In this document: positions 21,678 through 49,691 of the stretch, piece after piece
Layout of the letters: each line of letters starts with the position of its first letter
Numbering within the stretch: position 1 is the first letter of the stretch
NCBI RefSeq assembly: GCF_004124235.1
Contig: NZ_CP032487.1
Span: 3,100,001-3,164,000, forward strand
Source: Yersinia hibernica
GTDB lineage: Bacteria > Pseudomonadota > Gammaproteobacteria > Enterobacterales > Enterobacteriaceae
Direction of reading: 5' to 3'
DNA length: 64,000 bases
Translations under genes and position numbers: made by a program
The notes under the pieces: generated by a model
Seen by the model: only the letters and a program-made list of their open reading frames with translations
Database searches by the model: none
Told to the model about the DNA's origin: nothing

Positions 21678-21684
21678 TTCTTCG

Positions 21685-21714: not shown

Positions 21715-21770
21715 GACCCTGACTTCTCCGCAAGAACGCCAACGTTGTCGGCTTGTGGTTATGGCAATAG

Positions 21771-21811
21771 AGCCCTCGCAATGTCATCTGACTTTGCCGG
21801 GCTTTTTTTTT
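21771..21811 (+). terminator. Leader terminator, probable target of AmiR-type antitermination
   Basis: A long hairpin (AGCCC closing against GGGCT, inner GCAATGTCA against TGACTTTGC with one mismatch) is followed by a nine-T run at 21803-21811, all inside the untranslated leader. An alternative small hairpin, GGC-AATAGA-GCC (21763-21774), uses part of the 5' terminator arm, so the two are mutually exclusive. ANTAR proteins such as AmiR act this way, and an ANTAR gene lies in the same cluster (28862-29500). The loop does not match the published A1/G4 hexaloop exactly. Confidence 0.65.
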
Positions 21812-21861
21812 GGCTTTTTTTCAGACCCACATTTTTTAACCAATGCCAGGGGTATTTACTT

Positions 21862-23124: not shown

Positions 23125-23139
23125 ATCTGGCTTCTTTGT

Positions 23140-23170
23140 AGGGAAGTGACCGTCAGTGGCGGGCTTCCCT
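23140..23170 (+). other. Intercistronic hairpin after the binding-protein gene
   Basis: A perfect 7-bp repeat (AGGGAAG / CTTCCCT, 17-nt loop) lies in the 97-bp gap before the first permease, without a T-run. It probably stabilises the 3' end of the highly expressed binding-protein message. Confidence 0.4.
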
Positions 23171-23221
23171 GTGTTCTCCATTTTCAATGGTGTCATTCAG
23201 GACACCGGGGATTGCCAAACG

Positions 23222-24091: not shown

Positions 24092-24100
24092 GAGCTGAAT

Positions 24101-25159: not shown

Positions 25160-25890
25160 ATCAGCTAGCACCAGAGTTGATCCTCGAAACCCGTGGCCTG
25201 AGTAAGCGCTTTGGTGGCATTCAGGTTATCAATCAAGTTGATTTACAAATACGTCGCGGTGAAGTGCGTTGTGTCATTGGCCCGAATGGCGCGGGGAAAA
25301 GCACTTTTTTCAAATTGCTGACCGGTGAACACATTCCCAGTGATGGGGATATTCGTTTCTTCAATCGCCGGCTGAATACCTTAGCCCCCTTCCAGCGCAT
25401 TCGAATGGGCATGAGCATTAAGTTCCAGATCCCCGGCATCTTCCCTGAACTGACGGTGGAACAACATTTGCAATTATCACTCAGCCATTTACGCCCTGAA
25501 GTTCGCGCGCAAGCAGTCAGTGTCGATGAGCTATTAGAGCGCTTTAAACTCACCACGGAATACCACCAGCTGGCCGGTAATTTGTCTCACGGTAAAAAAC
25601 AGTGGCTGGAAATTGCCATGGCGGTGTCACTCCAGCCAACTTTACTGATGCTCGATGAACCGGTGGCGGGCTTATCTATCGATGAAACCTATCTCACTGG
25701 CGAGTTGATTAAGCAGATGCAAAGTGACGGCCTGACACTGATGGTGGTGGAGCACGACATGACATTCGTGCGCCAGATTGCCTCGCAGGTCACCGTCCTC
25801 CATGGCGGGCAGGTTTTTGCTGACGGTAATGCAGCTGAAGTGCTGGCGCGCGAGGATGTGGCGGATATCTATTTGGGGAAAGCGGTATGA
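25156..25890 (+). CDS. Amide/urea ABC transporter ATP-binding protein (UrtD-like)
   Basis: This 244-aa ATPase of the LivG type has Walker A GPNGAGKST, the variant signature LSHGKKQWLEIAMAV and Walker B LLMLDEPVAGLS. The signature is a short-chain-amide/urea subfamily feature rather than the usual LSGGQ. The ATG at 25156 overlaps the upstream stop; the track frame starting at 25096 runs inside the permease gene and is not the true start. Confidence 0.9.
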   Translation: MNQLAPELILETRGLSKRFGGIQVINQVDLQIRRGEVRCVIGPNGAGKSTFFKLLTGEHIPSDGDIRFFNRRLNTLAPFQRIRMGMSIKFQIPGIFPELTVEQHLQLSLSHLRPEVRAQAVSVDELLERFKLTTEYHQLAGNLSHGKKQWLEIAMAVSLQPTLLMLDEPVAGLSIDETYLTGELIKQMQSDGLTLMVVEHDMTFVRQIASQVTVLHGGQVFADGNAAEVLAREDVADIYLGKAV

Positions 25891-26609
25891 ATAACGTGGT
25901 GTTACAAATAGAGGCGCTGACCGGCGGTTATGGCGGCGGACAAGTGCTCAATGGCGTCACCCTGCAACTGCATGCAGCCGAGGTCTTGGGCCTGATTGGC
26001 CGCAATGGGGTGGGGAAAACCACACTGATGCGCGCCTTAATGGGTGCCGTGCCCGCCAAACAGGGCCGCATTATTTTAGCTGATGACATTGATATCACCC
26101 AGGCCACACCGCAGCGCCGTGCTCGCCTGGGTATTGGCTATGTGCCGCAAGGGCGCGAAGTGTTCGCCGGTTTGACTGTAGCGGAGAATCTGCAAGTGGG
26201 AATGCAGTTTGTCCGTGAACACCGTGAGTTTGCTAAAGACCTGTTAGAGCGGGTGCTCGACTACTTCCCCATTTTGCGCCAAAGACTCAAACAAAAAGCC
26301 GGCACCATGAGTGGTGGCGAACAACAGCAATTGGCTATCGCCAGAGCATTGGTCGGCTCCCCCAAAGTCTTGCTGCTCGATGAGCCCTCCGAGGGGGTTC
26401 AGCCCTCTATCGTCAATATCATCGCCGACACATTAGTGCGAATTGCGCGCGAGCTACATGTGGCGGTGATTTTGGTCGAACAGGATATCGCGATGATCCA
26501 GCGGGCTGCACAACGTTGTGCGGTGATGGATAAAGGTCAAGTGGTAGAAACCCTGTCACAACAACAACTTTCTGATGATCTTTTAATGCGCCGTCATCTG
26601 GCTCTGTAA
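25887..26609 (+). CDS. Amide/urea ABC transporter ATP-binding protein (UrtE-like)
   Basis: This 240-aa LivF-type ATPase has Walker A GRNGVGKTT, signature MSGGEQQQLAIARAL and Walker B VLLLDEPSEGVQPSIV. The start overlaps the previous stop by 4 nt, so the transporter genes are coupled from permease C through both ATPases. The formamidase gene follows after 31 bp. Confidence 0.9.
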   Translation: MNNVVLQIEALTGGYGGGQVLNGVTLQLHAAEVLGLIGRNGVGKTTLMRALMGAVPAKQGRIILADDIDITQATPQRRARLGIGYVPQGREVFAGLTVAENLQVGMQFVREHREFAKDLLERVLDYFPILRQRLKQKAGTMSGGEQQQLAIARALVGSPKVLLLDEPSEGVQPSIVNIIADTLVRIARELHVAVILVEQDIAMIQRAAQRCAVMDKGQVVETLSQQQLSDDLLMRRHLAL

Positions 26610-26640
26610 CCAAATGCCCTTATTACGTGGAGAATTACTA

Positions 26641-27630
26641 ATGAAATGGCTAGAAGAATCAATCATGGTCAAACGCGGTGTCGGTGCGGGACGTAAACCG
26701 GTGACTCACCATTTGACGGAAGAAATGCAGAAAGAATTCCACTACACCATCGGCCCCTACTCGACGCCAGTGCTGACCATTGAGCCCGGTGACCGAGTCA
26801 TTGTGGATACGCGCGATGCCTTTGAAGGGGCGATTAACTCCGAGCAAGATATCCCAAGCCAACTGCTCAAAATGCCGTTTCTCAACCCACAAAATGGCCC
26901 AATCATGGTCAACGGAGCCGAGAAAGGGGATGTGATTGCGGTCTACATTGAATCCATGCTGCCACGTGGTGTTAATCCGCACGGTATCTGCGCCATGATC
27001 CCGCACTTTGGCGGGCTAACCGGCACAGATTTGACCGCCATGCTCAATGACCCGCTGCCAGAAAAAGTGCGCATGATTAAGCTCGACAGTGAAAAGGTCT
27101 ACTGGAGCGAGCGCCATACCCTGCCCTACAAGCCGCACATTGGCACCTTAAGTGTGTCACCGGAAATTGACTCCATCAATTCACTGACTCCGGATAATCA
27201 CGGCGGGAATATGGATGTGCCAGATATCGGGCCGGGCAGTATTACCTATCTGCCGGTGCGCGCCCCTGGTGGCCGTTTATTTATTGGCGACGCCCATGCT
27301 TGCCAAGGGGATGGAGAGATTTGCGGCACCGCGGTGGAGTTTGCCTCAATAACCACCATCAAAGTGGATTTGATTAAAAACTGGCAGCTCTCCTGGCCGC
27401 GCATGGAGAATGCCGAAACCATCATGAGTATCGGCAGCGCCCGCCCCTTAGAGGATGCCACCCGCATTGCTTATCGTGACCTAATTTACTGGTTAGTAGC
27501 CGATTTTGGCTTCGAGCAATGGGATGCTTACATGCTGCTCAGTCAATGCGGCAAAGTGCGGTTGGGTAACATGGTCGACCCTAAATACACCGTCGGCGCG
27601 ATGCTTAATAAAGCGCTATTGGCACCATAA
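26641..27630 (+). CDS. Acetamidase/formamidase family amidase
   Basis: This 329-aa cytoplasmic amidase of the FmdA/AmdA family hydrolyses formamide or acetamide to ammonia and the acid. Conserved stretches include HYTIGPYSTPVLTIEPGD, NPQNGPIMVNGAEKGD, DNHGGNMDVPDIGPGS and GDAHACQGDGEICGTAVE, the last holding the conserved acidic and Cys residues. The ATG at 26641 follows GTGGAG; a frame from 26614 exists but lacks a ribosome-binding site. It follows the transporter, giving uptake plus hydrolysis in one operon. A terminator stands directly downstream. Confidence 0.9.
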   Translation: MKWLEESIMVKRGVGAGRKPVTHHLTEEMQKEFHYTIGPYSTPVLTIEPGDRVIVDTRDAFEGAINSEQDIPSQLLKMPFLNPQNGPIMVNGAEKGDVIAVYIESMLPRGVNPHGICAMIPHFGGLTGTDLTAMLNDPLPEKVRMIKLDSEKVYWSERHTLPYKPHIGTLSVSPEIDSINSLTPDNHGGNMDVPDIGPGSITYLPVRAPGGRLFIGDAHACQGDGEICGTAVEFASITTIKVDLIKNWQLSWPRMENAETIMSIGSARPLEDATRIAYRDLIYWLVADFGFEQWDAYMLLSQCGKVRLGNMVDPKYTVGAMLNKALLAP

Positions 27631-27636
27631 TTCCTA

Positions 27637-27661
27637 CCCCGGTGTAAGCCGGGGCCTTTTT
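27637..27661 (+). terminator. Intrinsic terminator after the formamidase gene
   Basis: A perfect 6-bp GC stem (CCCCGG / CCGGGG, loop TGTAAG) is followed by CCTTTTTC. It should limit read-through into amiC-amiR, so the regulators get low read-through expression, are themselves antiterminated, or have a promoter of their own that I do not see. Confidence 0.75.
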
Positions 27662-27705
27662 CACGTTTGCTCAATCGCCATTTAAACTGACATAAGCAGG
27701 TGCAT

Positions 27706-28872
27706 ATGGGTTCAGAGACACCGGTCAATATTGGCTTGCTGTACTCCTTCAGTGGTGTCACAGCGGCCCAAGAACTATCGCAATGGCGCGGTGCGACACA
27801 GGCTATTGCCGAAATTAACCAACATGGCGGCATCAATGGCAGGCCACTAAAAGCAATTCATTTTGACCCACAATCTGACGATGCACAGTTCCGCGCCCTC
27901 GCCGAGCAATTAATCGTCGAGCACGAGGTGAATGTGATTTTTGGCGGCTATACCTCCAGCAGCCGCAAAGCAATGTCACCGGTGGTAGAAAAATATCGTC
28001 GGCTGCTGTTCTATTCGCAACTGTATGAAGGATTTGAGTTTTCCGAGAATATTTTCTATGGCGGCGCGGCTCCCAACCAGAACTGTGTGCAATTGGCCGA
28101 CTATCTGAGCGGGCAGTTTGGCGCGCGGGTCTATTTGATTGGCTCGCGCTATATTTACCCCTACGAATGTAATCGCAATATGCAGGAGTTAATTCTGCAA
28201 CGCCATGACGGCGCAGTGATTGGCGAGCGCTATCTGGATCTGAATGCGCCTTATGAGGCTTTTTTGCCCATCATCGAGGAGATAGCCAAAAAGCAGCCCG
28301 ATTTCATCTTCAGCACCGTGGTCGGGCAGACCGTTCCTTTCTTATATCAAGCTTACCAAGCTGCGGGATTAGACCCTAGCCGCATGCCTATTGGCAGCCT
28401 GAATACATCAGAAACTGAGATTGCCATTATGGGGGCCGAAGCCGCACAAGGCCATTTCAGCTCTGCCCCCTACTTCCAAAGCATTTGCACGAAAGCGAAT
28501 CAATCAGCGCTCAAGCAATTCCATCAACAATTCGGGCCAGAATTCACCACGGATATGAATTGGGAAGCCACTTACAGCCAAGTGCATCTCTTCGCTAAAG
28601 CCATGGCCGAGTGTGGCAGTGACCACATCTATCCGCTGTCTGCCGCACTGCGCGGGAGCCAATTTGATGCCCCACAAGGTCGCATTCGTATTGACCCGCT
28701 GAATCAACACACTGGCTTATATCCGCGCATTGGTGTGGCGAATGAAAATGGGCAATTTACCATCGTGCAAGAGTCGCGCCGTATTGTTGAACCCGACCCC
28801 TATATGACCAACCAGATTCAGGGCGATTGGGTGACGAAACTCACGACAGTGGGGTATCCGCATGCGACCTAG
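27706..28872 (+). CDS. amiC: AmiC-like cytoplasmic amide sensor
   Basis: This 388-aa protein has the fold and sequence of amide-binding proteins (VNIGLLYSFSGVTAAQELSQ, HFDPQSDDAQFRALAEQLI, IFGGYTSSSRKAM, LLFYSQLYEGFEFSENIF) but no signal peptide, so it should stay in the cytoplasm. In Pseudomonas, AmiC binds amides and releases the antiterminator AmiR. The next gene, overlapping by 11 nt, is AmiR-like. The ATG at 27706 has an AGGTG ribosome-binding site; a GTG at 27700 is an alternative start. It is a clear paralogue of the transporter's binding protein at 21862. Confidence 0.85.
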   Translation: MGSETPVNIGLLYSFSGVTAAQELSQWRGATQAIAEINQHGGINGRPLKAIHFDPQSDDAQFRALAEQLIVEHEVNVIFGGYTSSSRKAMSPVVEKYRRLLFYSQLYEGFEFSENIFYGGAAPNQNCVQLADYLSGQFGARVYLIGSRYIYPYECNRNMQELILQRHDGAVIGERYLDLNAPYEAFLPIIEEIAKKQPDFIFSTVVGQTVPFLYQAYQAAGLDPSRMPIGSLNTSETEIAIMGAEAAQGHFSSAPYFQSICTKANQSALKQFHQQFGPEFTTDMNWEATYSQVHLFAKAMAECGSDHIYPLSAALRGSQFDAPQGRIRIDPLNQHTGLYPRIGVANENGQFTIVQESRRIVEPDPYMTNQIQGDWVTKLTTVGYPHAT

Positions 28873-29500
28873 CGACAGCAGAATCAGTGCGACAGCCTTA
28901 TTACTCAGCCGCGGGATCCGCTGTGTGGTATTACACCCCGATGACGAAGACGGCGAGACACTCACGAATCATTTACGCCGCATGGGGTTTAAGGTGCAAG
29001 CCTTCTGGCCCATCCCTGAGCAGCTGCCCGCAGATACTGACCTGATTTTCTATGCATTACAGTCAGATAACCCCGAGCCGGACGTGTCATGGCTCGACCA
29101 CCATAAGCATGCCCTGATAGCGGTAATTGCTTATGAAAACCCAACATTTATTGATCAAGCCCTCAATATGGGGGCCGGAAGCACCATCACCACCCCGATT
29201 CGAGCCTCTGGTTTACTGTCAGCCATGGTGCTTGCTTTGCATCATGCCCAACAGCAGCGGCAGATGAGCGCCCAGATTGAACGGCTGGAAAAAAAAGTGC
29301 TGGGGATCCGCCAAGTCAGTGAAGCCAAAGCCATCCTGATGCGGATGCACAGTATTGGTGAAGAACAAGCTTATGAAATCCTGCGCCATCAGGCCATGGA
29401 TAAACGCATTACCGTCGAAGAGATCTCATGCTCATTAATTCAGGCCAATGATATTTTTTCCTGGACGACACCCGGCGCGGCCAACAGCCGAAAGAATTGA
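28862..29500 (+). CDS. amiR: AmiR-like ANTAR-domain transcription antiterminator
   Basis: This 212-aa protein has an N-terminal receiver-like domain without a normal phospho-acceptor Asp pattern, a coiled-coil linker (AQQQRQMSAQIERLEKKVLG) and a C-terminal ANTAR RNA-binding domain (EAKAILMRMHSIGEEQAYEI, then LRHQAMDKRITVEEIS). ANTAR proteins bind paired hairpins in leader RNA and prevent terminator formation. The likely target is the leader terminator at 21771-21811 before the amide transporter. The start lies within the end of amiC, consistent with coupled, stoichiometric synthesis of sensor and antiterminator. Confidence 0.88.
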   Translation: MRPSDSRISATALLLSRGIRCVVLHPDDEDGETLTNHLRRMGFKVQAFWPIPEQLPADTDLIFYALQSDNPEPDVSWLDHHKHALIAVIAYENPTFIDQALNMGAGSTITTPIRASGLLSAMVLALHHAQQQRQMSAQIERLEKKVLGIRQVSEAKAILMRMHSIGEEQAYEILRHQAMDKRITVEEISCSLIQANDIFSWTTPGAANSRKN

Positions 29501-29555
29501 GTTTAAATTGCCCGGTATTTTCTCAACATAGTATTCATTATTTATGAGGATAATC

Positions 29556-31289
29556 ATGTCAATAGCACCGTATCTTGCCGCTGCAATCCAGTTCGAACCC
29601 TTGATGTTTGCCAAAGAAGCCAATGTGCGCCAATTACTGGCATTAGTAGAACAAGCAGCACAAAAAGGTGCACGCCTGATTACCACGCCAGAAATGGCGA
29701 CCACCGGTTATTGTTGGTTTGACCGGCAAGAAATCGCGCCCATGGTGGAAACCGTACCGGGAGAAAGCACCGCCCGCTTTACTGAATTAGCACAGCGTTA
29801 TCAATGCTATATCGTGCTGGGGATGCCGGAAATTGACTCACAAACAGCCCTCTATTACAACAGTGCCGTCCTTATCGGGCCACAAGGTGTTGTTGGCTGC
29901 CATCGTAAAAGCCACCCCTATATTTCAGAACCCAAATGGGCAGCCGCAGGGGACGTCGGGCATCAAGTCTTTGATACCCCGCTGGGGCGTATTGGCATGC
30001 TGGTCTGTATGGATATTCATTTTCCCGAAACTGCGCGCTTGCTGGCACTGGACGGTGTTGACGTCATTTGCCACATCAGCAACTGGCTGGCAGAGCGCAC
30101 GCCCGCCCCTTACTGGATAAGCCGAGCCATGGAAAATGGCTGTTATCTGCTGGAAAGTAACCGCTGGGGATTAGAGCGCGGCGTCCAATTTAGCGGGGGC
30201 AGCTGTATTATTGCACCCGATGGCAACATTGCTGCCGTGGTGGACAATGGCGATGGGATTGCCTACGCCAAGATTGATATCAACCGCAGCCGTCAGCGCC
30301 AAGTGATGGGCGAGTTAGTATTCGAGCAGCGCCGCCCAGACCATTATCACACACTACTAAGTGACAGTTTTTTGTGGAACCCACAAGATTTCTTTGGCCT
30401 TTACGGGCAACAGCCCCTCCCCCCGGGCAAACAGAGCCGTATCACTGTGGCGCAGTTCTCCTCAACCGAACAAGTGGCGGACAACTTGGCGACCATTACC
30501 GCCATGACGGAGGAGGCGGTTGCACAACAAGGTAGCGAGCTAATTGTATTCCCAGAACTCGCCCTGACCGGTTATCACTCTGGTGCGGCTCATGCTCAAA
30601 CCCCGCAAAGCCCCGCAGTGCAAGCATTAGCCCGTTTATCTATGAAATTGCGAGTGTATCTGGTGGTGGGAATGGCCGAAAAACAACAGGATAAATGCTA
30701 TAACACCCAGCTGCTGTTTGGGCCAGAGGGCGTCATTGGCTGCTATCGGCAAATACATCTTTCTCAAGCATGCCGGCAGTGGGCCAGTGCAGGGGATCAC
30801 TGGCGCGTATTTGACACCGCCCTCGGCAGGATAGGATTACTGTTGGGCCATGACGCGCTGTTACCCGAATCGGCCCGTATTTTAGCCCTAATGGGATGCG
30901 ATATTATTGCCTGTTCCGCAGCACTCTCGGCCGGTTTCACCGCCGCCCATACGGGCAGTTCCGTCGTGCAAAATTACCCCATCCCCACTGGGGCCGACCC
31001 GCTACATTGGCACTTATTCCGAACCCGTGCGGGGGAAAATAATCTTTATTTGGCCTTTTCTAATACCATTGATGGCACCACTGGACAAGGAGGATATAGC
31101 GGAATATTCGGGCCAGAAACATTCACTTTCCCGCGCCTTGAACGGCTGCTTTGGCAAGAGTCACGCGCGGTCACGCAAATCATTGATACGCGGTCTATGG
31201 CCGGCAGTGCTTATCCAACCAATGTGGTGCGCCGAAAAGATTTGGTCGCCATGCGCCAGCCCCATCACTATAAGCCGCTGCTAAATTAA
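29556..31289 (+). CDS. Tandem nitrilase-superfamily protein with a degenerate second domain
   Basis: This 577-aa protein has two carbon-nitrogen hydrolase domains, about 5-270 and 295-570. Domain 1 keeps the triad Glu46 (TTPEMATTGY), Lys118 (GCHRKSHPY) and Cys151 (MLVCMDIHFPE). In domain 2 the Glu is present (Glu334, FPELALTGY) but the aligned Lys is Gln399 (GCYRQIHLS) and the aligned Cys is Gly431 (LLLGHDALLPE). Domain 2 should therefore be catalytically dead. The ATG at 29556 with GAGGA upstream is preferred to 29544. It sits 55 bp after amiR, so an amide or nitrile is the likely substrate, hydrolysed by domain 1; domain 2 may be structural or allosteric. Confidence 0.85.
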   Translation: MSIAPYLAAAIQFEPLMFAKEANVRQLLALVEQAAQKGARLITTPEMATTGYCWFDRQEIAPMVETVPGESTARFTELAQRYQCYIVLGMPEIDSQTALYYNSAVLIGPQGVVGCHRKSHPYISEPKWAAAGDVGHQVFDTPLGRIGMLVCMDIHFPETARLLALDGVDVICHISNWLAERTPAPYWISRAMENGCYLLESNRWGLERGVQFSGGSCIIAPDGNIAAVVDNGDGIAYAKIDINRSRQRQVMGELVFEQRRPDHYHTLLSDSFLWNPQDFFGLYGQQPLPPGKQSRITVAQFSSTEQVADNLATITAMTEEAVAQQGSELIVFPELALTGYHSGAAHAQTPQSPAVQALARLSMKLRVYLVVGMAEKQQDKCYNTQLLFGPEGVIGCYRQIHLSQACRQWASAGDHWRVFDTALGRIGLLLGHDALLPESARILALMGCDIIACSAALSAGFTAAHTGSSVVQNYPIPTGADPLHWHLFRTRAGENNLYLAFSNTIDGTTGQGGYSGIFGPETFTFPRLERLLWQESRAVTQIIDTRSMAGSAYPTNVVRRKDLVAMRQPHHYKPLLN

Positions 31290-40478: not shown

Positions 40479-42371
40479 CTAAATGGCGACCCGCCGGCTT
40501 ATCTCTACCACCTGATTACTCGGTAAATGATAGTAGTTGGTCACATGAGTACAATTTCTGACCATAAAAGCAAAACTGCTCCGCTGCCATGCCGGTAACC
40601 CCCTGCCATCCTCACGCCCGACAATGGTTTCGTGGCCTAAATAGTAGGTCACATCATCTAGCTCAAATTGGCAATCCATACCGGTAATACTTTGTAATAA
40701 CAGCGGAATATGTGGCCGCTCCATGAAACCATATTGTGCCGTGCCACGCCAATAATCCGGCGCTTGCTCGGTCACCACCAGCCGCTCCGTCACATCCACC
40801 CGGGGGACATTCAAAATAGTGATAGTCAGTGATAATACCTTCTGCTGTAGGGCACGATTGCGGGCCACATGCCAGCGCATCACTGGAGGAATATCATTCT
40901 GAGTTCGAGTTAAAAACACGGCCGATCCCGGTACGCGAGGGATGTTTTTATCGCGAATGTGAGTAAAAAATTCGTCAATGCTCATCACTTTTTCGCTAAT
41001 AGCTTGCGAGGTTGCTTTGACCCCACGGTGCCACACCAGCATCACGGTGCAGACCACCGCCGCCAATAGCAGAGGAATGTAACCGCCTTCGAGCACTTTA
41101 ATCAGATTGGCAATAAGGAAGCAGGCATCGATAACTAAAAATCCCCCGGCCACTAAAGCACTTGCCCACAAATTCCACCGCCATATTTTGCGCATCGCCA
41201 CAAATAACAATCCGGAAGTCATCAACATAGTCAGCGATACGGCAATACCGTAAGCTGCCGCCAGATTTTCAGAGGATTTAAAAAACACCGCCAGAAAAAC
41301 AGTCACTATCATTAATAGCCAATTTATCGTGCCAATATAAATTTGCCCATAACTCTCTGCCGCCGTCTGTTTTATTCGCAAACGTGGTAACCAGCCCAGT
41401 TGAATAGCCTGACGGGTCATGGAAAATGCCCCAGTAATAATCGCCTGGCTGGCGATAATAGTGGCAAGAGTGGCCAAAATAACCAACGGAATTTGCATTA
41501 TCGGCGGGCACAAGCGGAAAAAGATATTATGTGAAATATCTGCACCCGCCAAAATTAGAGCGGACTGACCGGCATAATTCAGTAATAAACTGGGAAATAC
41601 CAGGCCAAACCACGCCATCCAAATCGGCTTTTTGCCAAAATGCCCCATATCGGCATACAAAGCCTCCGCCCCGGTGACACAGAGGAAAACACCACCCAAG
41701 ACAAGAAAACTGATAAAACCATTAGAGAACAAAAAGTTAATGCCATAGTAGGGGTTAATCGCCAGCAGAACAGCAGGATGTTGCACTATCCCCCATATCC
41801 CCAGCCCTGCAATAGCAAAAAACCACAGCGCCATGACCGGGCCAAAAATTTTGCCTATTTTCGCGGTACCAAAAGGTTGAATGGCGAATAATACCACCAG
41901 AATAATGACTGTCGCGGGTAAGATATAGGGTTGTGCATGTGGAATAACAATATTGAGCCCTTCAAGGGCGGAAAGTACCGATATCGCCGGGGTAATGGCA
42001 CCATCGCCGTAAATTAGCGCAGCACCAAGTAAGGCGGAAAAAATAACCCACCGCTGCCCTTTCCCCTTCCGCACTAATAAGGACATGAGAGCCATAATGC
42101 CCCCCTCACCATTATTATCAATGCGCATGGCGAAAATGGCATATTTTATTGATGTCACCAGAATTAACGTCCAAATAATTAGTGACAGCAATCCCAGAAT
42201 AACCATGGGAGTTGGATTATTGCCCGATAATAATAAAACGGTCTTTAAGGTATAAAGTGGGCTAGTCCCGATATCACCGAAAACCACACCGAGCGCGCCC
42301 CCTACCAGCATAATATTGCCAGAAGGTTTTTGAGGGATAACTTTATGGGTAATCAATGCCATTTTGTCCAT
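40479..42371 (-). CDS. kup: KUP-family potassium uptake protein
   Basis: This 630-aa inner-membrane K+/H+ symporter has about twelve helices. ALGVVFGDIGTSPLYTLKTV near residue 28, IDNNGEGGIMALMSL and GDGAITPAISVLSALEGL near 122 are KUP signatures. A hydrophilic C-terminal domain follows (ending RVAI). E. coli Kup is 622 aa. The ATG at 42371 has GGGATG upstream; a second ATG three codons on is possible. It stands alone, convergent with the EF-G gene. Confidence 0.95.
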   Translation of the reverse strand: MDKMALITHKVIPQKPSGNIMLVGGALGVVFGDIGTSPLYTLKTVLLLSGNNPTPMVILGLLSLIIWTLILVTSIKYAIFAMRIDNNGEGGIMALMSLLVRKGKGQRWVIFSALLGAALIYGDGAITPAISVLSALEGLNIVIPHAQPYILPATVIILVVLFAIQPFGTAKIGKIFGPVMALWFFAIAGLGIWGIVQHPAVLLAINPYYGINFLFSNGFISFLVLGGVFLCVTGAEALYADMGHFGKKPIWMAWFGLVFPSLLLNYAGQSALILAGADISHNIFFRLCPPIMQIPLVILATLATIIASQAIITGAFSMTRQAIQLGWLPRLRIKQTAAESYGQIYIGTINWLLMIVTVFLAVFFKSSENLAAAYGIAVSLTMLMTSGLLFVAMRKIWRWNLWASALVAGGFLVIDACFLIANLIKVLEGGYIPLLLAAVVCTVMLVWHRGVKATSQAISEKVMSIDEFFTHIRDKNIPRVPGSAVFLTRTQNDIPPVMRWHVARNRALQQKVLSLTITILNVPRVDVTERLVVTEQAPDYWRGTAQYGFMERPHIPLLLQSITGMDCQFELDDVTYYLGHETIVGREDGRGLPAWQRSSFAFMVRNCTHVTNYYHLPSNQVVEISRRVAI

Positions 42372-42515
42372 AACAACATCCCTTTAGCGGTTTTTTACGG
42401 TGATTTGTTTGAGTTCCTCTATGAATAATATAGACCCAAAGATGGTGCGCCACATGCTGCCGATGGCAAAAGAACTGGTCTGGACACCATATTGGCAATT
42501 TGCAAAATAACAGAA

Positions 42516-43106
42516 TTAGAAAGTGACCGGCGTATTTACCCACAGCACTTTGGCCACAGACTCGCCAATATTACGGTAACCATGGGGGACATGACTGGGG
42601 AAATAAAAAGAATCACCTACACCGAGGGTATAAATCTCTTCACCTAAATAGAGTGCAATTTCCCCCTCCAACACATATCCCATCTCCTCGCCATGATGCT
42701 CTATCTGCCCATCACTGGCGACACCCGGCTCAATAATATGAATATTCCCCTGCAATAACCCGCCTTTATGGTGATGCGTTAGATTTTCCAACGCAATTCC
42801 TCCTTTTTTATTCCGGTGAACAAAGCGCTTACGCACCCGCTGCTCCGGCTGCAAGACTGGTGAGTCAGCTACCCAACTTTCTGCCATCAAATCTGAGATA
42901 TTGGTTTCCAGTGCGCTCGCCAGCCGGTGCAACATCGCCAGTGAGGGGGACGCCACTTCATTTTCCAATTTGGACAATAAACTCTCTGAGCATCCCACTT
43001 TCAGTGCCAGCTGCTTTAGCGTGATGTCTTGTGCCAAACGGGCATGACGTAAACGCATTCCTAAATCAGATAAAACAAAACCGCCGCTATCACCGTTTTT
43101 TTTCAT
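42516..43106 (-). CDS. XRE-family regulator with C-terminal cupin domain
   Basis: This 196-aa protein has an N-terminal helix-turn-helix (LRHARLAQDITLKQLALKVG, CSESLLSKLENEVASPSLAM, about 14-65) and a C-terminal cupin_2 domain (HHGEEMGYVLEGEIALYLGEE, YFPSHVPHGYRNIGE, about 130-190). Such regulators (for example PuuR) sense small nitrogen compounds or amino acids. It lies 84 bp downstream of the M20-DUF1989 gene on the same strand and probably controls that operon, perhaps through the perfect palindrome at 48147-48163. The link is inference from position. Confidence 0.88.
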   Translation of the reverse strand: MKKNGDSGGFVLSDLGMRLRHARLAQDITLKQLALKVGCSESLLSKLENEVASPSLAMLHRLASALETNISDLMAESWVADSPVLQPEQRVRKRFVHRNKKGGIALENLTHHHKGGLLQGNIHIIEPGVASDGQIEHHGEEMGYVLEGEIALYLGEEIYTLGVGDSFYFPSHVPHGYRNIGESVAKVLWVNTPVTF

Positions 43107-43190
43107 AAGTTGCTATCTGCTCTGCTCAAAGAGACTCAAACGCCCGGCGTATCCGTGCCGGGCCACATGCTGAATATGCTGATTTGGTGC

Positions 43191-43889
43191 TTATTCAGTG
43201 ACACTAAAATGCACATCCTGCGGGTTACACCCATTGATTGGAACAATGTCTTGCGGGCAAGCTGACATCACGACGATGCAATCCAACTCGGCGCGGATCT
43301 CAACATAATCGCCCGCTTTACTCACCGTGGGTAACCAGGAAATGGTGTAATCCGGGTTGACGGGGGTATTCATCCACAAATTCAAAGGTTGTGGCACTTC
43401 TTTAGCCCTCAACCCGATAGCATTCAGCGCCAGGCGCATATTATCGGCACAACTGTCGTGGTAATCAGTGATCCCCATATTGCTATAGCGATAAAGGTCA
43501 CAAGCCGCAATCAGGGTATCGTGCACGCCCGGCGAGGTATCAGTCAGTAGTGTGCCAATGGCACGGCGCTGATTGGTCACTAGGGCATCTCCCGGTTGAG
43601 GAATGATTTTATCAATAAATGCGCGAGTATGTTCCATTGATGAAAACTCACTCAGATCAGCGCTATTGAATAACCAGGTATCACACACCTGACTGCCGTG
43701 GGTGTTCGTGATGCGGATAACCTGCCCTTTGCTCAAGCGCACCGCCCGGCCACAGCGGGCCGGTACTGTATAGGTTTCGCCGAGAACCGGCGTGCCGTCG
43801 GCGGAGATTGGTGCGGATAAGGTGGCATTAGTGCCCAGTGCGCTACCGTTGTCTTTTTCACAGCAAGCGGGGTAAGTGTGGGTGCTCAT
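43191..43889 (-). other. Possible internally initiated DUF1989 protein
   Basis: Inside the fusion gene, an ATG at 43889 (Met418, MSTHTYPACCEKDNGSALG) is preceded by AGGAG at 43895-43899, a 5-nt spacing as good as any in the window. It would give a free 232-aa DUF1989 protein. This is either the relic start of a once separate gene or a working second start that adds free DUF1989 protein to the fusion. Confidence 0.5.
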
Positions 43890-45140
43890 GGTAACTCCTA
43901 TGGGTTGATTTGCCAGTTCTGTCAGGCAGCAGGCGAGTGCCTTCGCGCCAAGGTACAGATACTGAGGGTCTGTATATTCAGCCGGGTTATGGCTGATGCC
44001 GTTATGGCTGGGGACAAAAAACATGCTGGTCGGACAATGGCTGGCCAGATGCATCGCATCGTGAAATGCACCGGAAATCAGGGTCGCGGCCTCTATCTGT
44101 AGCGCCTGAGCACAAGCATATTGTTGCGCCAGTAACTCAGAATTGAATGCCACCGGTGGGTGAGCGAAAATTTGCTCAACCACCACGTTACATGCAGAAA
44201 TTTGCTGCATCCAATCATCAAACTGCGCCAATATCAGCGGGTCGGCATGGCGAAAATCGAGGGTGAAAGTGGCACGTCCGGCAATGGTATTAATGGCATT
44301 GGGCTCAATCTCCCAGCGGCCAAAAGTCAGGCGCAGCTGTTCCGCTGGCAATGTGGCAGTCAGTTGCTCCAACTGAGAAACCGTCTGGCGTGCCAGTGAC
44401 ATAGCATCTTTGCGATCCGCCATCGGGGTGGTGCCGGCATGAGCGGACTGCCCCAGACAGGTCACTTGGTACCAGCGCACCCCTTGAATACCCTGCACCA
44501 CGGCCAAAGGTTGATTCGCCTGCTCCAGTATCGGCCCTTGCTCAATATGCAGCTCGACAAACGCCGCCATTGGCACCGTAGTGCGCCGCGGCAATTGCGC
44601 AAAACGTTGATGACAGTTTGCGAGTGCTTGCGCCAACGTCATCCCTTGCGCATCCTGATTATGCAGATAACCGGCCAGGCGTTGCGGCTGAACAAAAGCA
44701 CTGGAGCCCATGGCCCCGGGAGAGAAACGGCTGCCCTCCTCGTTCATCCATACCGCCACTTCAATGGGGCGCAAGGTGCTGATACCCGCTTCAGCCAAGG
44801 CACTCAAGCACTCCATACCGGCAATCACGCCATAGCATCCATCAAGATTACCGCCGCAAGGCTGAGTATCAATATGGCTGCCAGTAACCACCGGTGGTAA
44901 ATCTTCGCGCCCCGCGCGACGGATAAACAGGTTGGCGCTGTCATCGGTCATCACTTCGCAACCCAAGGTATAGGCCCAATCAATGAGCCAAGCTCTGGCA
45001 TCTAATTCCTCGGCAGATAAAGCCTGCCGATTCACTCCGCCATGCGCTAATGCCCCAAAGCGAGCCAATTGTGCCAATTTATCCATCAACCGCTGTTGGC
45101 TGACATAACCGGCTAAGCGCACACCAACAGAATTAAGCAT
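43191..45140 (-). CDS. M20 amidohydrolase fused to a DUF1989 (urea-carboxylase-associated) domain
   Basis: This 649-aa two-domain protein begins with an N-carbamoyl-amino-acid/allantoate amidohydrolase (M20, about 15-412). Metal residues are visible: TGSHIDTQPCGGNLDG (His89, Asp100), NEEGSRF (Glu134/135), ELHIEQGP (His198) and HNGISHNPAEY (His384). The C-terminal DUF1989 domain (about 455-645) has SQVCDTWLFN, GVHDTLIAACD, DYHDSCADNM and VMSACPQDIVPINGCNPQDV. The ATG at 45140 has GGAGG at ideal spacing and overlaps the ATPase gene by 8 nt. A strong internal start precedes the second domain (see 43191-43889). The substrate is probably an imported ureido, carbamoyl or guanidino compound. Confidence 0.85.
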   Translation of the reverse strand: MLNSVGVRLAGYVSQQRLMDKLAQLARFGALAHGGVNRQALSAEELDARAWLIDWAYTLGCEVMTDDSANLFIRRAGREDLPPVVTGSHIDTQPCGGNLDGCYGVIAGMECLSALAEAGISTLRPIEVAVWMNEEGSRFSPGAMGSSAFVQPQRLAGYLHNQDAQGMTLAQALANCHQRFAQLPRRTTVPMAAFVELHIEQGPILEQANQPLAVVQGIQGVRWYQVTCLGQSAHAGTTPMADRKDAMSLARQTVSQLEQLTATLPAEQLRLTFGRWEIEPNAINTIAGRATFTLDFRHADPLILAQFDDWMQQISACNVVVEQIFAHPPVAFNSELLAQQYACAQALQIEAATLISGAFHDAMHLASHCPTSMFFVPSHNGISHNPAEYTDPQYLYLGAKALACCLTELANQPIGVTMSTHTYPACCEKDNGSALGTNATLSAPISADGTPVLGETYTVPARCGRAVRLSKGQVIRITNTHGSQVCDTWLFNSADLSEFSSMEHTRAFIDKIIPQPGDALVTNQRRAIGTLLTDTSPGVHDTLIAACDLYRYSNMGITDYHDSCADNMRLALNAIGLRAKEVPQPLNLWMNTPVNPDYTISWLPTVSKAGDYVEIRAELDCIVVMSACPQDIVPINGCNPQDVHFSVTE

Positions 45141-45945
45141 GCCCGGCCTCCGCTTCATCCAGTTGCAGCGGGCGTTTAAACCACGGCGCTAGGAATGATT
45201 TCAATCGGTCGGTTTGTGGTTGGCGAAATAGGGTTGCTGGTGCGCCGGCTTCAATAATTGAACCGTCCGCCATAAACACCACGCGGGACGAAATTTTGGC
45301 AGCAAAGGACATTTCGTGCGTCACCATCACCATAGTCATCCCATTGTTTGCCAACACTTTAATCACATCGAGCACCTCTTCTACCCGCTCGGGATCAAGG
45401 GCGGAGGTCGGCTCATCCAGCAACAGCAACTCCGGCTCCAGCGCCAAAGCTCTGGCAATGCCCACCCGCTGCTGTTGTCCACCGGATAGCCGTGCTGGGC
45501 GAGCCTCGGCTTTGTCCGACATCCCCACCTGCGCCAGCGCCGCCGCCGCTTTTTTTCGCGCAACTTCACGCGGCAGTTTTGTACCCAAAATCAGCGGGGC
45601 ACAAACATTTTCCAGCACCGTCATATGCGGCCACAGATTAAATTGCTGGAAAACCATCGCCAGCGGGCGGCGCACTTCAGCAATTAATGCCGCACTGTCA
45701 CGGTGCTTCGGCTCACGCCCAGCACTGCTGTAACCCAGCAATTGCCCCTTAATCAGCACTTCGCCCTCGTCATAGGCTTCGAGAAAATTCATGCAACGTA
45801 ATGCGGTGGTTTTCCCCGATCCGGAAGGGCCAATTAAGGTGACAATTTCACCGGCCTTTACCGTCAGATTGATGCCGCTAAGCACCCGATTGCCCGCAAA
45901 GGATTTACCCAGATGACGTAATTCAATAATAGGTTCGGCATTCAT
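45133..45945 (-). CDS. Polar amino-acid-type ABC transporter ATP-binding protein
   Basis: This 270-aa HisP/GlnQ-type ATPase has Walker A GPSGSGKTT, Q-loop FQQFNLWPHMTVLENV, signature LSGGQQQRVGIARAL, Walker B LLLLDEPTSALDPE and H-loop VMVTHEM. The ATG at 45945 has GAGGG upstream and is 4 bp past the permease stop; the longer frame is not coding. A roughly 25-residue insertion (LLGYSSAGREPKHRDSAALI) lies between Walker A and the Q-loop. It energises the two permeases upstream. Confidence 0.93.
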   Translation of the reverse strand: MNAEPIIELRHLGKSFAGNRVLSGINLTVKAGEIVTLIGPSGSGKTTALRCMNFLEAYDEGEVLIKGQLLGYSSAGREPKHRDSAALIAEVRRPLAMVFQQFNLWPHMTVLENVCAPLILGTKLPREVARKKAAAALAQVGMSDKAEARPARLSGGQQQRVGIARALALEPELLLLDEPTSALDPERVEEVLDVIKVLANNGMTMVMVTHEMSFAAKISSRVVFMADGSIIEAGAPATLFRQPQTDRLKSFLAPWFKRPLQLDEAEAGHA

Positions 45946-45949
45946 GATG

Positions 45950-46588
45950 TTATCCCTCGATGGCCCGCTGGCTAAGTAGGCGAATTCCGACACTGACACC
46001 TTGCGCCAGCAGCCAATAACTGAGGATAAGCAAGGTATAAGGCACGATATAAGTGTATGTATTAGCGACGATTTGCCCGGTAGTCATGGTCAGCTCTGGC
46101 ACCGTGATAATCGATGCCACCGCACTCTCTTTAATGGTTAAAATGAACTGGTTCCCCAACAGCGGCAGACTAAAACGCAATGCTTGCGGGGTTTGGATAT
46201 ACCAAAAACTCTTCCATGCTGAAATATCATGCACTTGCGCGGCTTCTAGTTGCCCGAGCCCAATGCTTTTCCATGCTGTGCGAAAGATTTCACCAAAGTA
46301 GGCCGAGCTGTAAATGGCCAGTGACAACACGGTGGCTTCGATGGCACTGAGCGTGATGCCAATGGCGGGTAAACCAAAATAGAACACCGCCAGCTGTGCC
46401 AAATAGGGTGTGCCACGAATCAGCCACACATAAGTGCGCCACGGCCAGAACAGCCACCGGCGATGCCGACACACCGCGTGTAAAATGAACCCGGCGAAGG
46501 CCCCGATGAGCGCCGCACTCATGCTGATTGCCAGTGTGACCCCCAATGCACGGGCAAAGTCCGGCACATAAAGAAAGAAGTCGTTCAT
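45950..46588 (-). CDS. Polar amino-acid ABC transporter permease 1
   Basis: This 212-aa HisMQ-family permease has five hydrophobic segments. WLIRGTPYLAQLAVFYFGLP near residue 55 and the EAA loop SIGLGQLEAAQVHDISAWKSF near 110 are family features. It overlaps its neighbour permease by 4 nt and was presumably duplicated from it. Together they form the transmembrane heterodimer. Confidence 0.92.
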   Translation of the reverse strand: MNDFFLYVPDFARALGVTLAISMSAALIGAFAGFILHAVCRHRRWLFWPWRTYVWLIRGTPYLAQLAVFYFGLPAIGITLSAIEATVLSLAIYSSAYFGEIFRTAWKSIGLGQLEAAQVHDISAWKSFWYIQTPQALRFSLPLLGNQFILTIKESAVASIITVPELTMTTGQIVANTYTYIVPYTLLILSYWLLAQGVSVGIRLLSQRAIEG

Positions 46589-47247
46589 CGGCTCTCCTTA
46601 TGCCAGCACCGTTCCACATAGCCGCCTAGCAAGGCCAGCAGGCTGGTCAACACCAAATAAGACAACGCAATCGCCACATAGACCTCCAGCGGGCGGTAGG
46701 TGGCCGACGCCAATTGCTGCCCTACCCGCATCAAATCGGTAATGGCAATCACCGATACCACCGCAGAGGCTTTGATCACATCGATTAACTCTGAAATCAA
46801 TGACGGCATGGTGATGCGCAACACTTGGGGGATCTGGATGTGCCACAGCATCTGGCGCGGGCTGAGTCCACACATGGCGGCGGCCTCCAACTGCCCCGGC
46901 GGAATGGCATTGAAACCGCTGCGTAAAATTTGCGATTGATAGGCAGCGGTGTTGAGTGTTAAAGCCATCACCGCCGCCAAAAAGCCGGGCAGCGACAGCC
47001 CCAATTCTCCTGGCAGATAGAAGCACAATAAAACCTGCGCCAGCACCGGGGTGCCACGGAACAAACTGATATAGACACGGGCGAATCCTCGGCCCAATCG
47101 TGAGCGGCCACTTTCCATCAGGTAGACAACCACACCGATAAAAAAACCGGCAACAATGGCTACCATACACAGCGAGGCGGTGGTCAGCGCGCCGTCTATC
47201 AACATCGGCAACCAAGCCGTCAGCAATTGGAAAAATTCCCCCATCAT
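46585..47247 (-). CDS. Polar amino-acid ABC transporter permease 2
   Basis: This 220-aa HisMQ-family permease carries SLFRGTPVLAQVLLCFYLPG and the EAA loop AIPPGQLEAAAMCGLSPRQML. The ATG at 47247 has AGAGG upstream; the frame beyond it overlaps the binding-protein gene. It starts 8 bp after the binding-protein stop. Confidence 0.92.
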   Translation of the reverse strand: MMGEFFQLLTAWLPMLIDGALTTASLCMVAIVAGFFIGVVVYLMESGRSRLGRGFARVYISLFRGTPVLAQVLLCFYLPGELGLSLPGFLAAVMALTLNTAAYQSQILRSGFNAIPPGQLEAAAMCGLSPRQMLWHIQIPQVLRITMPSLISELIDVIKASAVVSVIAITDLMRVGQQLASATYRPLEVYVAIALSYLVLTSLLALLGGYVERCWHKESR

Positions 47248-47255
47248 CAATCCTC

Positions 47256-48113
47256 TTACAAGCTCGGTGCTGGCATCTGATCCGCTGGAACATCCATCAC
47301 GAAGCCGAACCATTTCTGCTGCAATGCTTTCATGGTGCCATCGCGGTTGGCTTCACTGATGCCGTCGCTGAACAGTTTGACCAAAGTGGCACTGTCATCC
47401 CCTTTACGTCCGACCCAGCCAAAATAGGTGATTGGCCCTAACATCGGTTTTAATGTGGTAAACACCCCCGGACGGGTTTTGATTAATGGGCCAAGATTCG
47501 CCAGTGACTGGGCGACGCCATCCAGCCGTTTGTTCGCCAAGTCAGCATAAGCTTCATCGAAAGAGACATATTGCTTGATCTCCTTGATACCCGGCTTACC
47601 GCTGGCTTTCAGTTTGTCATTAAATTCTTGCAGCACCTGAAGCTGGCCAGAGCCGGCTTGAGATCCCACCACTTTGCCACTCAAGTCATCTAAGGTGCTG
47701 ATAGAATTGTCATTATCACGTTTGAGCAATGCCACGGTGGACTCAGCAATTGGGACGGTAAACGCGAAATGGTCCACGCGCTGCTTATTCACTGTCACCG
47801 CGGTGACAACAAAATCGAACTTCTTGGCATCAAGGCCGGGCAATATGCCCTGGAAAGGCAGATCAAGTTGCTTAACCTCAACACCCGGCAGTTTTTTCTG
47901 CAAAATATGATTCATTAAATCAACGTCATATCCCACAATCTTGCCATTCTCTACTGACTCAAAAGGCGCATAACGCGCTTCGGTGGCGATGGTTATCACC
48001 TTGTCAGCTTTAATTTTGTCCAGCAAATCTGCGCTGTGAGCAGTGGCAGAAAATACGCTGGCAGCACACAGCATTGCCCAGCACAAAGGTATTGCCTGTT
48101 TACGTCGTGTCAT
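47256..48113 (-). CDS. Periplasmic polar amino-acid-type binding protein
   Basis: This 285-aa SBP_bac_3 protein has a Sec signal (MTRRKQAIPLCWAMLCAASVF, cleavage near SATAHSA). The mature part starts with the family strand ITIATEARYAPFESVENGKIVGYDVDLMNHI, whose residues fit binding of an alpha-amino and carboxyl group, and has KVVGSQAGSGQLQVLQ. The ATG at 48113 has GAGGCGG upstream. It heads the operon that ends in the M20-DUF1989 fusion, so the ligand may be an N-carbamoyl or ureido amino acid. That specificity is inference. Confidence 0.9.
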   Translation of the reverse strand: MTRRKQAIPLCWAMLCAASVFSATAHSADLLDKIKADKVITIATEARYAPFESVENGKIVGYDVDLMNHILQKKLPGVEVKQLDLPFQGILPGLDAKKFDFVVTAVTVNKQRVDHFAFTVPIAESTVALLKRDNDNSISTLDDLSGKVVGSQAGSGQLQVLQEFNDKLKASGKPGIKEIKQYVSFDEAYADLANKRLDGVAQSLANLGPLIKTRPGVFTTLKPMLGPITYFGWVGRKGDDSATLVKLFSDGISEANRDGTMKALQQKWFGFVMDVPADQMPAPSL

Positions 48114-48146
48114 GATTGCCGCCTCATTTAAAGTGATGTGAAGTGT

Positions 48147-48163
48147 ATTCAAGTGACTTGAAT
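48147..48163. promoter_or_regulatory. Perfect 17-bp palindrome upstream of the amino-acid ABC operon
   Basis: ATTCAAGT-G-ACTTGAAT is an odd-centred perfect palindrome 33 bp before the binding-protein start. XRE-cupin regulators bind palindromes of this kind, and one is encoded at the far end of the same gene set (42516-43106). Confidence 0.6.
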
Positions 48164-48332
48164 GTAATGACATAAGCATGAACTATGCCAGCGGGCATAA
48201 AGTGAAAAGAGTAAATGGCGGAAAGTGATATAACTAACTGAAATTAAATTAGTCTTTTTGGGTTATTGCTTGATAACTAACACGGGCAGGACAGCAAGAA
48301 GAGAAAAAGTCATCGACCAATACACACTCAGC

Positions 48333-48368
48333 GCACAGAAAAAGTGCAAATTTGTGCTTTTTCTGTGC
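48333..48368 (-). terminator. Strong terminator after the four-gene AT-rich cluster
   Basis: A 36-bp inverted repeat (GCACAGAAAAAG / CTTTTTCTGTGC, inner CAAATTTG) lies 26 bp past the 48395 stop on the minus strand. The A/T tracts inside the stem would work in either direction. The remaining gap to 48113 holds the palindrome at 48147. Confidence 0.7.
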
Positions 48369-48394
48369 ATCACATGAAAATCCAATTTAGACAT

Positions 48395-48829
48395 TCAATC
48401 GTGGGCGGGAGGAATCGGCTTTTCTGCAGGGGGAATAGAGGGAATTAGGTTTGCATCATTAGACGTACTTTTTCTAACATCATCCTTGCCAAGCAGGTAA
48501 CCCGCGATCGCACCAAATAAACCAAGGATCGGTGCTAATTGGTTGTTATCATACCCAGTCACACATAAATAGGCAGAGAAGGAAATGATTAGAATGATGG
48601 TATACATCTTTAAAATATATCCGCCACGTAATTTGCATTTAATCAAAATATAAGTAATCAAAACAAGAATAAATGCAGTAAATACCAATATACTCGTAGA
48701 CAATGACATCACCAGCTCTGCACTCCAAATCGGCTTTGTATTGTTTGCCATATGGCTCACCGTGTCAGCATTAAAGGTTTTTGCCATCTCTTGCGAGGCT
48801 GAATTAAGAGTATCAATAGCATCAGTCAT
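48395..48829 (-). CDS. Unrecognised membrane protein with three predicted helices
   Basis: I do not recognise this 144-aa protein. It has a soluble helical N-terminus (TDAIDTLNSASQEMAKTFN), then hydrophobic segments at about 40-62, 72-95 and 101-118, and a proline-rich tail (SIPPAEKPIPPAHD). The ATG at 48829 has GGGGAA upstream and is 16 bp after the preceding gene, so it is the last gene of a four-gene operon. Small size and membrane helices recall holins, but no lysis or phage gene is nearby. Confidence 0.7.
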   Translation of the reverse strand: MTDAIDTLNSASQEMAKTFNADTVSHMANNTKPIWSAELVMSLSTSILVFTAFILVLITYILIKCKLRGGYILKMYTIILIISFSAYLCVTGYDNNQLAPILGLFGAIAGYLLGKDDVRKSTSNDANLIPSIPPAEKPIPPAHD

Positions 48830-48845
48830 GATTATTCCCCTACTA

Positions 48846-49232
48846 TCACTTTTGTTCCTTTGACTCAATCTTAGCTATCCTCTGATTGAGTTCATTAATA
48901 ACGCGAGTTTGAGCATCAACAGTTTTTTTCATGCTATCCAATCGTGCTGATATATTAGCCAGAGTTTTATTATCCTCTGGCGATTGAATAAGATGACTTA
49001 TTCCAGGAGCACTGAGCGGAACCGCGGGTACAGGTACCATCACCACATTACCGAGATTGGGGGCTTTAGGTGTTGTTATAGCCGCTGGCTCACAACCACG
49101 GCATTTGGTCGAATCAGAAACTACGCCAGAGATTTTCGTAGTGTCTTTATCATCAGTGTTATCTTGCCCATAAAGTAAGGAAGGAGAAATAAAAAACATG
49201 ACATTAAATAGTAAGAATAATAATCTACGCAT
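48846..49232 (-). CDS. Unrecognised secreted protein with C-terminal coiled coil
   Basis: This 128-aa protein has a signal peptide (MRRLLFLLFNVMFFISPSLLYG, cleaved near YG-Q). A CRGC pair near residue 45, a proline/valine-rich linker (VVMVPVPAVPLSAPG) and a C-terminal heptad region (NKTLANISARLDSMKKTVDA, then RVINELNQRIAKIESK) follow. It should be periplasmic and oligomeric. GGAGGG precedes the ATG. I find no known family. Confidence 0.7.
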   Translation of the reverse strand: MRRLLFLLFNVMFFISPSLLYGQDNTDDKDTTKISGVVSDSTKCRGCEPAAITTPKAPNLGNVVMVPVPAVPLSAPGISHLIQSPEDNKTLANISARLDSMKKTVDAQTRVINELNQRIAKIESKEQK

Positions 49233-49349
49233 ATTCCCTCCAGTAACTTAGACACAAAAAGAGCATGAACAGTAAGTTAACAACAGTCATACATTTAAAA
49301 ATAATGTTTACCGAACAAAATCACCGGACAGTTAGGCGGTTACGATAAA

Positions 49350-49691
49350 CTACTTAAACCATAATAGTATTTTTGCAGCGAGCTTTATCAATTTTGCCGC
49401 TTTGTCGATAACCACAGCGACATCATTAATATTGTTTATAGCTTCATTAACGGCATCGGTTATTTTTTGCGATGAATTTTTTATGTCGGATATAATAGCC
49501 ACATCCGCCGGGGATATTTTATCCAGCTGAGCGAGAGCCGTGCTTAGTTGATTATTTTTTGATACCAATGTCCAATATTCCTCAGGATCAATGACAACAT
49601 TTTTATCATCAACAGGCCATTTGGCAATCAGTAAACTATTCTTCCCCATAGCTGAAATCAGTGCATTTTCTAAATCATCATTTAGTGACAT
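49350..49691 (-). CDS. Unrecognised small helical protein
   Basis: This 113-aa protein has no signal peptide. After VIDPEEYWTLVSKNNQLSTA it is predicted mostly helical (SDIKNSSQKITDAVNEAINN) and ends in an amphipathic cationic helix (DKAAKLIKLAAKILLWFK) that could associate with a membrane. The ATG at 49691 has GAGGT upstream. It follows the lipoprotein gene by 42 bp. Function is unknown. Confidence 0.65.
   Translation of the reverse strand: MSLNDDLENALISAMGKNSLLIAKWPVDDKNVVIDPEEYWTLVSKNNQLSTALAQLDKISPADVAIISDIKNSSQKITDAVNEAINNINDVAVVIDKAAKLIKLAAKILLWFK

Follow-up and report, generated by a model that had tools for sequence, protein, structure and literature searches.

Why does one reading frame of Yersinia hibernica carry two catabolic enzymes, with a Shine-Dalgarno sequence and a start codon standing between them? 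The question arises from a window of 64,000 nucleotides (contig NZ_CP032487.1, positions 3,100,001 to 3,164,000), where the original prediction saw an M20 amidohydrolase joined to a DUF1989 domain, and proposed either a recent fusion by loss of a stop codon or one gene making both a fusion and a free DUF1989 subunit. We propose, with a probability of roughly 0.55, that the fusion supplies the two enzymes of a conserved operon which imports and catabolizes a guanidino acid, and that the old DUF1989 start probably yields free DUF1989 as well. What the substrate is, which two reactions take place and in which order, and that there are two products, we infer from the comparisons given below.

The Fused Reading Frame

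The open reading frame (43191..45158, minus strand) runs through 655 codons from 45158 without an internal stop, or through 649 codons from the likelier start at 45140. The latter is preferred because GGAGG (45147..45151, minus strand, read from the sequence) sits 6 nt 5′ of this ATG and because P0001 and P0003, two relatives, begin at the equivalent methionine, in agreement with the start chosen earlier; the ATG overlaps the 3′ end of the ATPase gene (ATGCTTAA). Pfam places Peptidase_M20 at residues 92-412 (86.9 bits, cut-off 24.6), M20_dimer at residues 224-320 (above its cut-off), and DUF1989 (PF09347) at residues 464-628 (43275..43769, minus strand), which with 169.4 bits belongs to the family by its gathering cut-off of 27. 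The whole hydantoinase/carbamoylase-type M20 half spans residues 20-420 (43899..45101, minus strand) according to TIGR01879 and the Foldseek matches 5thw and 8c46. An AlphaFold model of the fusion, built from 35 sequences, has a mean pLDDT of 78.8; confidence is low in the link (residues 417-439), and the DUF1989 part is modelled less well.

At the junction, an internal Shine-Dalgarno sequence, AGGAG (43895..43899, minus strand), is followed by the 5-nt spacer TTACC and an in-frame ATG (43887..43889, minus strand; first base 43889, residue 424), exactly as described in the original prediction. Among the window ORFs of at least 200 codons, 49 in number, AGGAG or GGAGG lies 4-9 nt upstream of 2 of the 443 in-frame ATGs that are at least 30 codons from either end; the other case lies in the permease ORF 46588-47313.

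Origin and Age of the Fusion in Yersinia

A search of 25 Yersinia genomes found the M20 and DUF1989 pair in 14 species. The comparison with relatives called for earlier is informative: the two are separate genes in 11 of the 14 species, and are fused in the window, Y. alsatica and Y. vastinensis, uninterrupted in all three. In ten species, including Y. massiliensis, the M20 frame passes the DUF1989 ATG out of frame and the genes overlap by 32 nt, and in Y. rohdei a different one-base change makes M20 end with TAG just before the DUF1989 ATG. The outgroups Erwinia sp. JUb26 and Pantoea coffeiphila have a 4-nt ATGA overlap instead. The spacer between the Shine-Dalgarno sequence and the ATG shortens along this series, from 7 nt in the two outgroups through 6 nt in the 11 unfused Yersinia to 5 nt in the three fused species. 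A tree built on 16 rows groups the fused species together as a single clade (support 99/98), to which Y. rohdei is sister (98/99).

The inner AGGAG and ATG correspond to the signal and codon at which the separate DUF1989 gene starts in unfused species, and on this correspondence AGGAG is the old DUF1989 start signal, inherited by the fusion. By parsimony, one-base losses in the spacer would have shifted the two frames against each other until they coincided: in the ancestor shared by the three species, a one-base deletion there would have put two overlapping genes into one frame. The fusion thus did not take the stop-loss route suggested at first. Adjoining start and stop codons are described as a signature of translational coupling (PMC3711429), and before the fusion the overlapping genes were probably coupled in this way. 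The series of spacers represents a stepwise, single-base route from overlapping genes to a fusion with the start signal retained, and makes it directly testable whether fused genes retain two products.

Nor is the event very recent. Pairwise dS among the three fused species is 0.62-0.93 for the M20 part and 0.58-0.64 for DUF1989, and because of this divergence the fusion is old on the scale of these species. The omega values among them (0.051-0.077 for M20, 0.018-0.033 for DUF1989) compare with 0.046-0.111 and 0.011-0.062 in the ten pairs of five unfused Yersinia species, which indicates that both halves are under purifying selection and kept as well as in the unfused species. A sequencing error or a decaying pseudogene could be suspected, the difference being one base in a short run of C, but this explanation is refuted for practical purposes by a state common to three species of one clade in separate assemblies, 655 open codons and low omega in both halves. 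The refuting case named earlier, a frameshift or sequencing error with a stop before 43889 in all relatives, does not apply, since not all relatives carry such a stop: Y. alsatica and Y. vastinensis also read through the junction without interruption.

Outside Yersinia, Erwinia oleae (L049) has the 6-nt spacer and 32-nt overlap of unfused Yersinia, perhaps reached independently. A betaproteobacterial protein of 666 aa (P0012), 51% identical and with its domains in the same order, is apparently another independent M20-DUF1989 fusion; its junction ...SQKGITMSTPM..., known as protein sequence only, is compatible with a Shine-Dalgarno sequence before an ATG. Two further candidates, the DUF1989-cupin protein P0124 and the DUF1989-M20 protein P0126, were dropped, each having an inner stretch that looks frame-shifted by eye. 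No fused Yersinia protein appeared in two protein-database listings, from which entries near the window may have been left out. DUF1989 is also listed as joined to PF07045, PF03479, PF13669, PF00724 and PF02133 in further proteins (P0121-P0123, P0125, P0128-P0132, P0135, P0137, P0142), two of those with PF02133 being named cytosine permease or NCS1 symporter.

A Possible Second Product from the Inner Start

Does the inherited signal still work? Initiation at 43889 would give a free DUF1989 product of 232 aa (43191..43889, minus strand), a possibility to which synonymous conservation speaks. The three fused species use the same codon at 303 (54%) of the 560 degenerate positions where they share the residue. 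Codon identity persists longest over a stretch of 14 codons (residues 415-428 of 655), which covers the Shine-Dalgarno sequence and the inner ATG; on shuffling, such a run has P 0.002 at the inner start and 0.028 at any place, in a test of three sequences only. The next longest run, 13 codons in another part of the gene (385-397 in a numbering one higher than that of the residues), leaves the run over the inner start only slightly exceptional.

These figures modestly favor continued production of free DUF1989 from the inner start. Of the dual-product idea in the original prediction, this part has gained modest support from the conserved synonymous sites; as to the idea that the subunits assemble together, fused and free DUF1989 may do so. 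It could well be, on the other hand, that only the fusion protein is made and that the inner Shine-Dalgarno sequence and ATG are hardly used leftovers of a once separate gene. The overlapping state could have fed initiation from nearby termination, and elongating ribosomes would now pass through the site; the Shine-Dalgarno sequence is paired in a stem in the predicted RNA fold at the window's inner start; and the 13-codon run indicates that such runs can arise otherwise. Against this stands the fact that, at a dS of 0.58-0.93, all 13 degenerate codons over the Shine-Dalgarno sequence and start are unchanged. The RNA structure itself was no more stable than shuffles at the inner start in seven sequences, the window's having been cut in another register than those of the six loci. 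We retain the reading in which the old start probably still yields some free DUF1989, and fused and free forms may co-assemble.

The Two Enzyme Halves and Their Known Relatives

The M20 half is a member of the hydantoinase/carbamoylase amidase family by TIGR01879 (366.2 bits, cut-off 204), and shares fold and family with AllC, L-N-carbamoylase and N-carbamoyl-β-alanine amidohydrolase. Its highest target-normalised TM-score among 50 listed matches is 0.90, to the N-carbamoyl-β-alanine amidohydrolase 8c46, a likeness that does not settle the substrate. H95 and D106 match positions 83 and 94 of the AllC chain, which we take to be metal ligands. Unlike the solved members of the family, with which it shares 27-41% identity among those listed, it reaches no equivalog cut-off and is fused to DUF1989; the AllC equivalog TIGR03176 gives 254.7 bits against a cut-off of 597.75, and every matched PRK09290 model stays below its cut-off, the best one narrowly (387.2 against 399). 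A fusion of an M20 carbamoylase with another domain is also known as the PRK13799 domain/N-carbamoyl-L-amino acid hydrolase, but there M20 is C-terminal, judging by the matched model positions, and the score here is 175 bits against a cut-off of 1087.

The DUF1989 half is 48-49% identical to the structures 3siy and 3oru. It resembles the TMAO demethylase Tdm, a protein of DUF1989 and GCV_T, in keeping three Cys, a His and an Asp: C553, H567, C570, C634 and D637 align with Tdm C263, H276, C279, C343 and D346, so that all three metal-binding Cys positions are occupied, C634 and D637 lying just beyond the Pfam match. In Tdm these residues are described as zinc ligands and as proposed iron ligands (PMC12560246). 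The fusion differs from Tdm in having no GCV_T match and in scoring 102.9 bits against the NF053776 cut-off of 1100.

DUF1989 is also the family of the carboxyguanidine deiminase CgdAB (UAAP1/UAAP2) of the guanidine carboxylase pathway, for which a role in breaking down guanidine by deimination, along with an importer, is described (PMC12186494, PMC11271267). The window operon shares the family and the importer with this system, but the partner of DUF1989 here is M20. By the curated cut-offs the DUF1989 half is not a carboxyguanidine deiminase, the enzyme mentioned in the original prediction, scoring 71.4 against 205.95 for TIGR03425 and 102.4 against 284.7 for TIGR03424. A two-partner DUF1989 pair like UAAP1/UAAP2 is likewise absent, the window's genome holding one DUF1989 place at E ≤1e-3.

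A Conserved Operon with an Importer

Upstream of the fusion, on the same minus strand, lie genes for a periplasmic binding protein of the LAO/opine type (47256..48179), ABC importer permease 1 (46585..47313), permease 2 (45950..46588) and an importer ATPase of the polar amino acid type (45133..45999), and downstream a gene for an HTH-cupin regulator (42516..43106), which matched the PuuR model far below cut-off. A scan of named genomes gave 44 loci, from close relatives only, with M20 and DUF1989 side by side in 40. All 40 keep the order binding protein, permease, permease, ATPase, M20, DUF1989, cupin regulator. The operon is widespread, being present in Enterobacterales, Pseudomonas, Acinetobacter, Caballeronia, Paraburkholderia and plasmids, among them plasmids of Pantoea dispersa and Klebsiella oxytoca. 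The K. oxytoca plasmid (L130), which carries the whole operon, is typed as conjugative, and 18 further Klebsiella records are listed with an 82%-identical DUF1989. In L129 and L132 a methyl-accepting chemotaxis receptor gene adjoins the binding-protein gene; the receptor perhaps senses the same compound.

No guanidine riboswitch was matched by Rfam in 42000-49500, where the sole match is a sub-threshold RAGATH-7-associated one (24.7 bits against 88.5). A literature search on DUF1989, carboxyguanidine deiminase and related names returned no paper naming an M20-DUF1989 operon.

The Binding Protein and Its Likely Ligand

LAO residue numbers were placed on the binding proteins through an AncQR alignment and what we take to be the LAO sequence. 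The window protein keeps E67, Y70, F109 and R134, and has Ser225 where LAO has Asp161. We compared 50 binding proteins (those of the 40 named loci and of L105, L106, L112, L115, L116, L127 and L129-L132), most of them close kin and not independent. All 50 have the Arg77 equivalent, an acid at Asp11 and an aromatic residue at the places of both Tyr14 and Phe52, and 49 of the 50 have Ser at the Asp161 place, the exception, L115, being a different operon.

In LAO, Asp161 and Ser72 are described as holding the α-NH3+ of the ligand (PMC5740067), and in an LAO-based sensor the D161I change is given as raising the Kd for lysine from 97 μM to 2 mM (PMC4917951). Because Asp161 is replaced by Ser while the residues for the cation and the carboxylate are kept, the ligand should carry a cation-like end and a carboxylate without a free α-amino group. 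That said, the opine receptor NocT (Glu36, Tyr39, Trp77, Arg102, Ser207; PMC5740067) also has Ser at the Asp161 place, so that opine-type ligands, that is N-substituted arginines, are possible too.

Ureohydrolases in Sister Operons

In sister M20/DUF1989 operons of more distant relatives, a ureohydrolase was found in five cases, in line with the proposed guanidino-acid module. An agmatinase-family ureohydrolase follows the regulator in L105 (genome G284), in L127 (G514, with the same gene order as G284), in Caballeronia (L131) and in Paraburkholderia (L132), and L106 (G088) has DUF1989, M20 and ureohydrolase, the first two swapped but adjacent. The calls in L105, L106 and L127 are by NCBIfam and those in L131 and L132 as annotated. 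For the L105 ureohydrolase, the one compared with solved structures, the nearest are 3-guanidinopropionase (E 1.1e-110) and then guanidinobutyrase (5.8e-84), with arginase far down; it and the L106 enzyme score under the arginase cut-off.

Of 46 DUF1989 places in 40 genomes chosen for their best DUF1989 matches, the window's own place left out, 5 have a ureohydrolase within 10 kb against 0.32 expected from a simple Poisson count that ignores relatedness. In G366 and G419, two of these five, the genes are arranged loosely and do not form the same operon. Most of 20 fetched DUF1989 neighbourhoods have neither M20 nor ureohydrolase, and around the Variovorax plasmid DUF1989 (L133, 59% identical) neither is annotated within 9 kb. 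No ureohydrolase was found in the flanks (up to 8 kb) of the 40 enterobacterial, Pseudomonas and Acinetobacter pairs, and the guanidino link is for this reason carried over from the more distant relatives; in the window's own genome the ureohydrolase search came back empty, an answer that is uninformative in that search. A separate arrangement occurs in L112 (3024-8707), where two divergent agmatinase-family ureohydrolases, both below the agmatinase cut-off, surround a polar amino-acid importer and DUF1989, in a stretch with no M20 match.

Proposed Pathway and Alternatives

In the pathway that we favor, the ABC system would import a guanidino acid without a free α-amino group, the metal-dependent DUF1989 half would deiminate the guanidino to a ureido group with release of ammonia, and the M20 half would hydrolyse the resulting ureido (N-carbamoyl) acid to amine, CO2 and ammonia. 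Deimination followed by decarbamoylation accounts for the importer and both enzymes, and makes the ureohydrolase of the sister operons a one-step alternative. The two-step agmatine enzymes have other folds than DUF1989 and M20. The proposed logic is the same as in agmatine use, where an iminohydrolase and an N-carbamoylputrescine amidohydrolase (two steps) are described beside agmatinase (one step) (PMC7370999, PMC8125230). The ureido or guanidino substrate and the two sequential steps foreseen in the original prediction thus find support in the 40/40 operon conservation, the ureohydrolases and the residues of the binding protein. Some sister operons hold both the DUF1989-M20 pair and the ureohydrolase, which we count against this explanation. 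The proposal gives a substrate class and a reaction order to the operon, as well as to a DUF1989 clade that does not belong to the known deiminases. Its boldest form, an undescribed DUF1989-M20 deiminase-carbamoylase route for guanidino acids together with, in one Yersinia clade, an inner-start gene making fusion and free DUF1989 in one complex, is speculative.

Two other substrates deserve weighing. M20 enzymes act on amides and not only on ureides, and M20 might remove an N-acyl or N-carbamoyl group from an N-substituted, opine-like arginine before DUF1989, or in the relatives possibly the ureohydrolase, acts on the guanidino end. The pattern Glu-Tyr-Phe-Arg-Ser of the binding site does resemble that given for NocT (PMC5740067), but the L105 ureohydrolase, whose nearest solved structures are 3-guanidinopropionase and guanidinobutyrase and which, like its L106 counterpart, lies under the arginase cut-off, makes this rather unlikely. 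A ureide path, in which M20 would be an allantoate amidohydrolase and DUF1989 would release ammonia from the intermediate that follows, is suggested by several NCBIfam allantoate-amidohydrolase subfamily models among the top matches of the M20 half; it is improbable in view of the AllC and PRK09290 scores given above and of the nearest solved relatives of the L105 ureohydrolase, named for guanidino acids. The guanidino-acid pathway remains our preferred reading.

The window holds a second nitrogen-catabolic cluster on the plus strand (21661-31289). Its binding protein exceeds the urea-importer cut-off of TIGR03669 and is accompanied by permease- and ATPase-like ORFs. The cluster also encodes a weakly matching FmdA-like protein and, both below their cut-offs, another UrtA-like protein and a 581-aa tandem protein that is nitrilase/N-carbamoylputrescine-amidase-like.
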